A DNA stretch of 64,000 nucleotides, taken from contig NZ_LQBO01000001.1 in the NCBI RefSeq assembly GCF_001507555.1, positions 1,302,001 to 1,366,000 on the forward strand, in the 5' to 3' direction. Positions 36,907 through 37,347 of this stretch are shown here, one piece after another. Position 1 is the stretch's first letter; every line of letters starts with the position of its first letter. The notes beneath the pieces were generated by a model. The model saw only the letters and a program-made list of their open reading frames with translations, was not told the origin of the DNA and did not search any database. Both the position numbers and the translations under genes were made by a program. Source of the stretch: Thiomicrospira sp. XS5. Its GTDB lineage: Bacteria; Pseudomonadota; Gammaproteobacteria; Thiomicrospirales; Thiomicrospiraceae.

Positions 36907-36959
36907 TTCGGTTAGGTTCAATAACGGGGCCTAATTGAATACCAAAATCGGTATAATGC

Positions 36960-37257
36960 GGGCCATTCTTGGGAACCTCTGATTGAATTCGTTTGGATTC
37001 TGGCAACGCCAATTTTTCGTCTTCAAGGCATCCTTTTGCCGTGCTATCCAGATAACACAAAAAAGGATAACGCCGAAGTCGGGAAATTGGCTAAGCCCCT
37101 TTGGGCGGAGCTTAAAGCCCACTTCTTCGTTGTTGTGACTCTTGACCTTAGAATGACTAAGGTCGGCGCGCCACGCCTAGAATAAGTGAGTTTTAAGTCC
37201 CGCAGAATTTCAAACGGGTTCGATCAGAGGTTCCCTAGGGAATGGCCCGTTTTTTTT
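36960..37257 (+). terminator. dnaK terminator apparently split by an inserted element
   Basis: CGGGCCATTC (36960-36969) is complementary to GAATGGCCCG (37240-37249), and eight T follow. Brought together, these ten-base arms would make a normal intrinsic terminator about 55 bp after the dnaK stop. They are now separated by 270 bp, but the inverted repeat of the intervening element would still hold them together in RNA. Confidence 0.5.
36971..37235. repeat. Long-inverted-repeat element, MITE-like or structured RNA
   Basis: The ends GGGAACCTCTGAT (36971) and ATCAGAGGTTCCC (37223-37235) are perfect inverted repeats of 13 bp. The match continues inward to about 31 pairs with three mismatches and one bulge; all three mismatches would be G-U pairs in RNA. 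Inside are three further stems: GCCAATTT/AAATTGGC (37008, 37084), GGCTAAGC.../GCTTAAAGCC (about 37089-37120) and GACCTTAG/CTAAGGTC (37144-37164). There is no convincing gene within, and no clean target-site duplication. It could be a miniature inverted-repeat transposable element or a branched non-coding RNA of about 290 nt; a TATAAT at 36952 lies just before it. Confidence 0.6.
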
Positions 37258-37337: not shown

Positions 37338-37347
37338 CCAGGCCTGG
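37338..37347. repeat. CCAGGCCTGG copy upstream of dnaJ
   Basis: Sits in the dnaK-dnaJ gap, 66 bp before dnaJ, within AAAGTGACCAGG and CCTGGTGATTTT. The outer arms pair poorly, so terminator activity should be weak. It stands downstream of the inserted element and the T-run. Confidence 0.85.

Follow-up and report, generated by a model that had tools for sequence, protein, structure and literature searches.

Introduction

The bcr1 repeats, ERIC and the Correia/NEMIS elements are dispersed mobile repeats with RNA-like folds, found in other hosts or at other sizes than the element considered here, and we know of no head-to-head homologous hairpins in any of them. Bacterial MITEs, according to the part of the source available to us, have terminal inverted repeats and a target duplication, lack a transposase gene, are intergenic, are mobilised in trans by insertion sequences and give stable stem-loop transcripts (PMC10969869). 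The present element shares the repeats, the duplication, the lack of a transposase gene and the intergenic position, and would share the mobilisation in trans and the stem-loop transcripts. For QMITE1 of Coxiella, the authors found no orthologues in other genomes, as stated in the accessible part of their account (PMC5896051).

Results

Position and parts of the element

In the window, that is, the whole 64,000-nucleotide stretch of Thiomicrospira sp. XS5 DNA that was analysed, the element starts with GGAACCTCTGATTGAATTCG at 36972 and ends with CGATCAGAGGTTCC at 37234. It is bracketed by dnaK (ORF end 36906) and dnaJ (start 37414), gene names that were taken from the ORF translations and from an earlier note on this DNA. 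R2, used in the list below, is a covariance model of hairpin 1.

36959–36968, + strand: left arm of the dnaK Rho-independent terminator, CGGGCCATTC (sequence; intact empty terminator in the nearest relative, G002)
36968–36971, no strand: left target-duplication copy, CTTG, which differs from CTAG by one base (sequence; register from other copies)
36972–37234, no strand: entire mobile element, 263 bp (12 related places in the own genome; empty site in relatives)
36972–37000, + strand: left terminal inverted repeat, about 29 bp (fold; 29 pairs of the consensus structure)
36998–37097, + strand: hairpin 1, motif strand +, internal loops UCAAGGC / AACGCCGAA (alignment; R2 match L001:1539–1638, 96 bits, the window copy being itself part of the R2 model)
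37098–37104, no strand: central mini-hairpin CC-TTT-GG between both large hairpins (consensus structure)
37105–37208, − strand: hairpin 2, homologue of hairpin 1 on the opposite strand, UAGGC / AACAAC loops (alignment; R2 match L001:1646–1748, − strand, 24.3 bits, E 0.0033)
37206–37234, − strand: right terminal inverted repeat (same evidence as the left repeat: fold and 29 consensus pairs)
37235–37238, no strand: right copy of the target duplication, CTAG (sequence)
37240–37257, + strand: right dnaK terminator arm, GAATGGCCCG (37240–37249), followed by a tract of eight T (sequence; empty terminator in G002)

The earlier note had placed a 265-bp inverted-repeat element at 36971–37235; the element is real, and those bounds take in one flanking base too many on each side. 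Its outer helix, branched interior and internal hairpins were recovered in the fold as that note described them. The three internal hairpins exist, and what had been missed is that the two large ones are homologous and lie on opposite strands.

Folded as RNA, positions 36959–37250 reach −149.4 kcal/mol on the + strand, compared with a shuffled mean of −85.2 (z −12.0), and −137.4 kcal/mol on the − strand (z −11.2); none of 200 shuffles was as good in either case. No ORF of at least 80 aa overlaps 36972–37234, and hence the 263-bp element holds no transposase gene; a promoter scan found no promoter-like site inside the window copy. When the covariance search against structured-RNA families that had been suggested earlier was run with Rfam 15 at gathering score, only a distant tRNA was found in the window and nothing matched the element. 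A local search gave three hits at E ≤ 10, all far below their own gathering scores, and sixteen further loci gave no Rfam family. With nothing but that tRNA in the window and nothing in these 16 loci, an Rfam RNA gene was rejected.

Copies, target duplications and empty sites

In the own genome, related sequences (the window copy among them) occupy 12 places at E ≤ 9e-12; both ends were located in 11 of them, L011 being partial. At E ≤ 0.001, matches were found in 25 of 93 genomes searched (own included) and in 5 of 42 genera. The 80 loci yielded 63 elements with located ends (17 had none), and 39 of the 63 have identical 4-bp flanks (4/4), a count in which end placement partly relied on the target duplication itself.

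Read as GGAACC...GGTTCC, the window element has an imperfect target duplication, CTTG (36968–36971) and CTAG (37235–37238), and other copies in this reading have clean ones, e.g. TTAG/TTAG, CTAA/CTAA or TTAA/TTAA. The previous statement that no clean target duplication is visible is corrected to this extent, that one with a single mismatch can be seen. Two main types of ends occur near the window's genus: GGAACCTCTGA is accompanied by YTAR duplications, GGGCACCTCGA by 4-bp duplications that are AT-rich. A YTAR duplication is typical of IS5. Both the 4-bp YTAR-type duplication and IS5-like ends, resembling those of L099, are found in the GGAACC subfamily; they are not found in the G182 relatives, which have CTAAGACAAACG ends beside TA.

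The empty site was seen in G002, the nearest relative (dnaK end 92% identical), whose terminator reads CGGGCCATTC-TCAA-GAATGGCCCG-T7. Its loop, TCAA, differs from the CTAG expected at the target, so that the CTAG target itself is not displayed there. Short-loop dnaK terminators are also present in the congeners G009, G004, G007, G010 and G003, in a comparison of 11 loci of which three (G005, G006, G008) were not parsed, and the dnaK copy is missing from every sister genome whose site was readable. This copy was either acquired after the split from G002 or lost in G002. Termination after dnaK is probably intact, since the terminator arms would be brought together by the stem of the element itself.

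With related copies, an empty site, an imperfect target duplication and insertion sequences with similar ends elsewhere, the reading of the element as a MITE, a non-autonomous DNA transposon, is secure. Of the features by which MITEs are recognised, terminal inverted repeats in many dispersed copies, target duplications with empty sites, and the lack of a transposase gene were found. The earlier proposals that the flanking arms and eight T form a terminator, intact and empty in G002, and that a non-autonomous mobile element had entered its loop were supported, the checks for other copies in the genome and for an empty dnaK–dnaJ site in sister strains having given the results above.

The same gap holds other sequences. 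In G001, this terminator loop is occupied by another inverted-repeat element (L162; about 165 bp, GAGAGGTTCTCACGAA ... TTCGTGTGAAACTCTC), to which neither R2 nor R3 gives a match at E ≤ 0.01. A one-armed, motif-related hairpin (L163:1395–1492; R2 25 bits, E 0.001) lies just after dnaK and before the terminator in G004; look-alikes were noticed by eye in L166 and L162, where R2 and R3 give no match at E ≤ 0.01. Between the terminator and dnaJ in the window is a palindrome, CCAGGCCTGG (37338–37347), and similar ACCAGGCCTGG sequences are present in the dnaK–dnaJ gaps of several congeners.

Insertion into terminators as a rule was rejected, given that flank pairing averaged over 60 copies (score 10.4) equals that with swapped flanks (10.1). 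Scores of at least 18 were reached by 5 of the 60 copies, compared with 0.9 expected (at most 5 in 200 swaps), and scores of at least 20 by two, the window copy among them; a minority of copies may be sited in hairpins. Orientation of the surrounding genes is unbiased, as expected since the element is symmetric (21 >E>, 18 <E<, 19 <E>, 12 >E<, counted over the 70 of 111 copies for which a simple ORF rule called a neighbour on either side). The median distance to the neighbouring ORF is 69 bases on the left and 54 on the right, and four copies overlap a called ORF. Palindromes of 27 bp that consist of two terminal-repeat ends back to back were observed in L138:1485–1511 (G025), flanked by CTGA and CTAA, and in L129 and L142:1485–1511 (G078).

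Candidate transposases

Insertion sequences with similar ends were found in other genomes. L099 (G066) contains one with ends GGAACCTCTGATCAATTGAC, a right flank TTAG and its left side at a contig end, and L126 (G032) one with ends GGAACCTCGAATAAC; their transposases belong to the IS5 family (NCBIfam NF033581, IS5_4; 362 and 272 bits). G047 has two IS5_4 (NF033581) insertion sequences, scoring 359 and 340 bits, with ends GGAAACACAGAACAAGTCCC and GGAAACGCGTAACAAGTCC that are close to those of copies such as L243 (GGAAACACTGATCAAGTCCC), and with flanks that agree in 3/4 and 2/4 bases. Searches of the own genome for a PF01609 or NF033581 transposase found none. The check for an insertion sequence with the same ends, which the earlier note advised, gave similar-ended IS5-type sequences in G066, G032 and G047 and none in the own genome. 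We infer that the window element is mobilised in trans by an IS5-type DDE transposase. The ends differ strongly among subfamilies, and therefore one transposase is unlikely to serve them all.

In G182, 22 pairs of CTAAGACAAACG ends lie 262–263 bp apart and none at the spacing of an insertion sequence. The eight copies inspected are nearly identical, with TA on the right in 8/8 and on the left in 6/8. The 22 identical-end pairs in this one-contig genome look like a recent burst, with a transposase that is absent or foreign.

A conserved fold with two homologous heads

A 65-pair consensus on 42 core sequences has 93.7% paired cells, compared with 79.3% in shuffles, and two-sided changes in 50 pairs and 339 cells, compared with 28 and 86 (0/500 shuffles reach the observed values); this consensus was derived from the same alignment on which it was scored, and relatedness is not preserved in the shuffles. 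With the partner shifted by one column, the paired cells drop to 44–48%. RNAalifold, applied to 46 full-length copies, gave 105 pairs, 82 of them with two or more Watson–Crick types. A mobile element and a structured RNA had been put forward as alternatives, an opposition that falls away, the mobile structure being itself conserved and covarying heavily.

The most conserved columns include internal loops, UCAAGGC / AACGCMGAG in the family form of hairpin 1 and UAGGC / AACAACG in hairpin 2, which are unpaired and highly conserved across genera. R2 matches hairpin 2 on the opposite strand in 34/34 elements and on the same strand in 0/34, with 19–48 bits (E < 0.01 in 33; E 0.06 in L195). As a palindromy control, hairpin 1 was scored on its own wrong strand, where it reaches 16–28 bits in 12/34; these scores overlap the hairpin 2 range, and thus part of the R2 homology score is palindromy. 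The argument for homologous heads therefore rests on the zero same-strand matches and on the shared loops. Some Thiotrichaceae copies, e.g. L174, also have an apical sequence, GAATGCTTATTGCC, common to both hairpins. Among 40 loci in other genomes, of which one place entered twice, R2 or R3 recognised a head-to-head pair in 25, and several of the remaining loci are one-armed or at contig ends. Taken together, the alignments and model matches indicate that the core is a conserved double-headed module: a small central hairpin is flanked by two homologous ones, which face each other from opposite strands.

Strand-specific wobble polarity

By parsimony on a FastTree tree of 66 copies (those of 255–285 bp and below 95% identity, out of 106), Watson–Crick pairs of hairpin 1 changed to G-U 59 times and to A-C 12 times. 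Hairpin 2, read on the + strand, gave the opposite polarity in the same tree, 29:69 (Fisher 2.5e-12; at the level of pairs 19/22 vs 9/26, p 4e-4), and the terminal helix 65 to G-U and 48 to A-C. The direction is the same for changes from G-C and from A-U pairs taken separately, and on internal branches only, where the two structures were pooled as their union, hairpin 1 has 15 changes to G-U against 5 to A-C and hairpin 2 has 3 against 23. A single RNA fold of the + strand was rejected, G-U and A-C being nearly balanced overall and opposite in polarity in the two arms.

With a symmetric stem alignment, in which G-U has no advantage and isolated mismatches within stems alone are counted, the first set gave 63:9 for hairpin 1 and only 74:48 for hairpin 2. 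In other families, the G-U to A-C ratios were 44:9 for R2-oriented and 28:11 for R3-oriented hairpins, with the strand set by a model search that scores G-U above A-C, a residual bias, and also by the loop motifs. One reading per hairpin was used (35/55 R2 hits, 25/53 R3 hits), the remaining hits being second readings, a duplicate of one place or, in a few cases, separate hairpins (e.g. L312:2210–2291, L163:1395–1492). Since this polarity is joined by conserved internal loops, each hairpin appears to be under selection in its folded, single-stranded form, the strand concerned being the one that has its 5′ end at the nearer terminus.

Resident copies and source lineages

Five copy pairs share an insertion site in two species (four in G000/G002, one in G029/G055). 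Their 36 pair changes include no compensated Watson–Crick substitution: 31 are single changes from Watson–Crick pairs (16 true mismatches, 6 G-U, 9 A-C), and the others are two further doubles and three singles without a Watson–Crick state. Changed columns number 5/255 among unpaired and 38/1050 among paired ones. In the family tree, by comparison, 195/310 changes on internal branches and 202/557 on tips are compensated. Long branches show double changes more easily, and the contrast persists on branches ≤ 0.10 (internal 104/183, tips 60/292). Against the 0/33 same-site changes that entered the test, Fisher p is 1e-3 or less for each tree class and 0.0014 for short tips.

Insertion columns are left out of these counts, as are 11 pairs deleted in L063. 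One such uncounted insertion is a compensated change in place: each terminal repeat of L002 carries an extra base, the two matching one another, that its same-site partner L055 lacks. L002/L055 is the most diverged of the five pairs, and five pairs are few. With that reservation, source lineages tend to keep the fold and resident copies to lose it, so far as can be read from the sequences, and at these five shared sites selection seems to act on the copies from which new ones arise and not on the residents. Because source and resident copies contrast in this way, we suppose that the hairpins serve the element's own propagation, which is less secure than the MITE reading.

The covariation could instead be mutational, in an ordinary MITE whose near-perfect palindrome lets template switching copy one arm onto the other without selection. 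The whole element is quasi-palindromic, and the matched base in L002, which has the same flanks as L055, is what such switching would leave. Because that insertion went uncounted, we have given template switching slightly more weight and our preferred explanation slightly less. We nonetheless regard it as distinctly unlikely, for the internal loops are highly conserved between genera and have stayed unpaired, switching would not be expected to give the arms opposite wobble polarity, and no paired Watson–Crick substitution occurs in same-site copies.

Another possibility is that the host keeps the element as a regulatory or processing RNA, mobility merely spreading it: read-through from either side would fold the first hairpin, which would bind a protein or nuclease, and the mRNA would be stabilised, processed or insulated. 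Strand-specific wobble polarity and conserved loops would suit a transcript entering from either side, copies lie near genes (at the median distances given above), and the RNA fold is very stable. Such a host function is unlikely, however, given that same-site residents decay (16 of the 31 single changes are true mismatches, and no substitution is compensated), that the window copy has neither a promoter-like site nor an Rfam family, and that the dnaK copy is missing from readable sister genomes.

Breadth and related forms

A pattern scan of genome contigs gave 99 stretches; among the 80 listed are Hydrogenovibrio, Thiomicrorhabdus, Thiomicrospira, Thiotrichaceae, Cocleimonas, Methyloprofundus, Methylophaga and a few other MAGs. 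R2 matches 82 of 369 sampled genomes of the class at E ≤ 0.001 and 29 of 398 genomes of the phylum sample at E ≤ 1e-5 (own included in both), E-values that are rough, the model being roughly calibrated and at most 10–11 candidates being scored per genome. Fifteen of the 29 lie outside the class, and one of these 15, G573, has an adjacent head-to-head pair. Flanks were inspected in nine R2-matching genomes, where relatives carry other transposon ends: those of G124 are GTACTGGAACG, flanked by CTAG or ACTAGT depending on register, and those of G072 are GTGTAGTGCGACG.

One-armed forms of 156–185 bp are represented by L177, L181, L205, L222 and L228, and also by L144 and L150 near 160 bp; the short forms L171 and L220 contain runs of N and were excluded from this list. 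Lone single hairpins were seen away from any complete element at L204:4815–4918 (43.6 bits) and L193:4512–4605 (32.2 bits).

A broader proposal, which we put forward tentatively and consider somewhat doubtful, is that the core is a portable propagation module, recognised by its fold as single-stranded RNA or DNA, that has been joined to several unlike DDE transposon ends (IS5-type with 4-bp targets, TA-flanked and others, in Gammaproteobacteria and at least one other class) and would boost their spread. The patchy distribution across genera and families, together with a strand-specific fold, would agree with hairpins that work during horizontal transfer, by conjugation or transformation, as single-stranded DNA, and not in transposition; each would then serve on the incoming strand as a site for recognition or priming that depends on its fold. 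We think this very unlikely, since nothing was found in viral contigs scanned with one exact pattern or in three plasmid searches, and terminal repeats with short duplications indicate DDE transposition.

Discussion

Our data favour, as the probable though by no means assured explanation, an IS5-mobilised MITE in the dnaK terminator loop with a double-headed hairpin core that is selected as a folded strand in propagating copies. An IS5-type DDE transposase would mobilise the element in trans, and one such event would have inserted it into the terminator loop. The folded hairpins may help it to propagate: the head-to-head layout would display one motif hairpin whichever strand turns single-stranded, be it as lagging-strand template or as transcript, and the stem could bring both ends together for a transposase.

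The usual view of a MITE is of a pair of transposon ends with filler between them. In this family it is the interior that is conserved and the ends that change. Covariation, wobble polarity and the decay of resident copies all three place selection on the folded single strand while the element propagates. Should the hairpins be read by the transposase or by a host factor, this would be a hitherto unrecognised step in bacterial transposition. The hairpins are also frequent enough (82/369 class genomes) to confound searches for intergenic RNA genes.

In a literature search made mostly without subscription journals, we found no description of a double-headed hairpin family. QMITE1 and QMITE2 of Coxiella have in common with the present family that they are gammaproteobacterial MITEs with long folds, some of them transcribed; their direct repeats are 2–4 or 7–11 bp, and we set them apart by description alone, from the part of the source available (PMC5896051). 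The MITE of Candidatus Thiomargarita nelsonii is likewise sulfur-bacterial, largely intergenic and a large hairpin, with TATAG direct repeats; the accessible part of its account describes no homologous hairpin pair or covariation, and on this comparison by description kinship is possible (PMC4853749). From bacterial MITEs as described in the available part of the source, the present family differs in its double-headed core of homologous hairpins with conserved loops, apparent strand-specific selection and unlike ends (PMC10969869).
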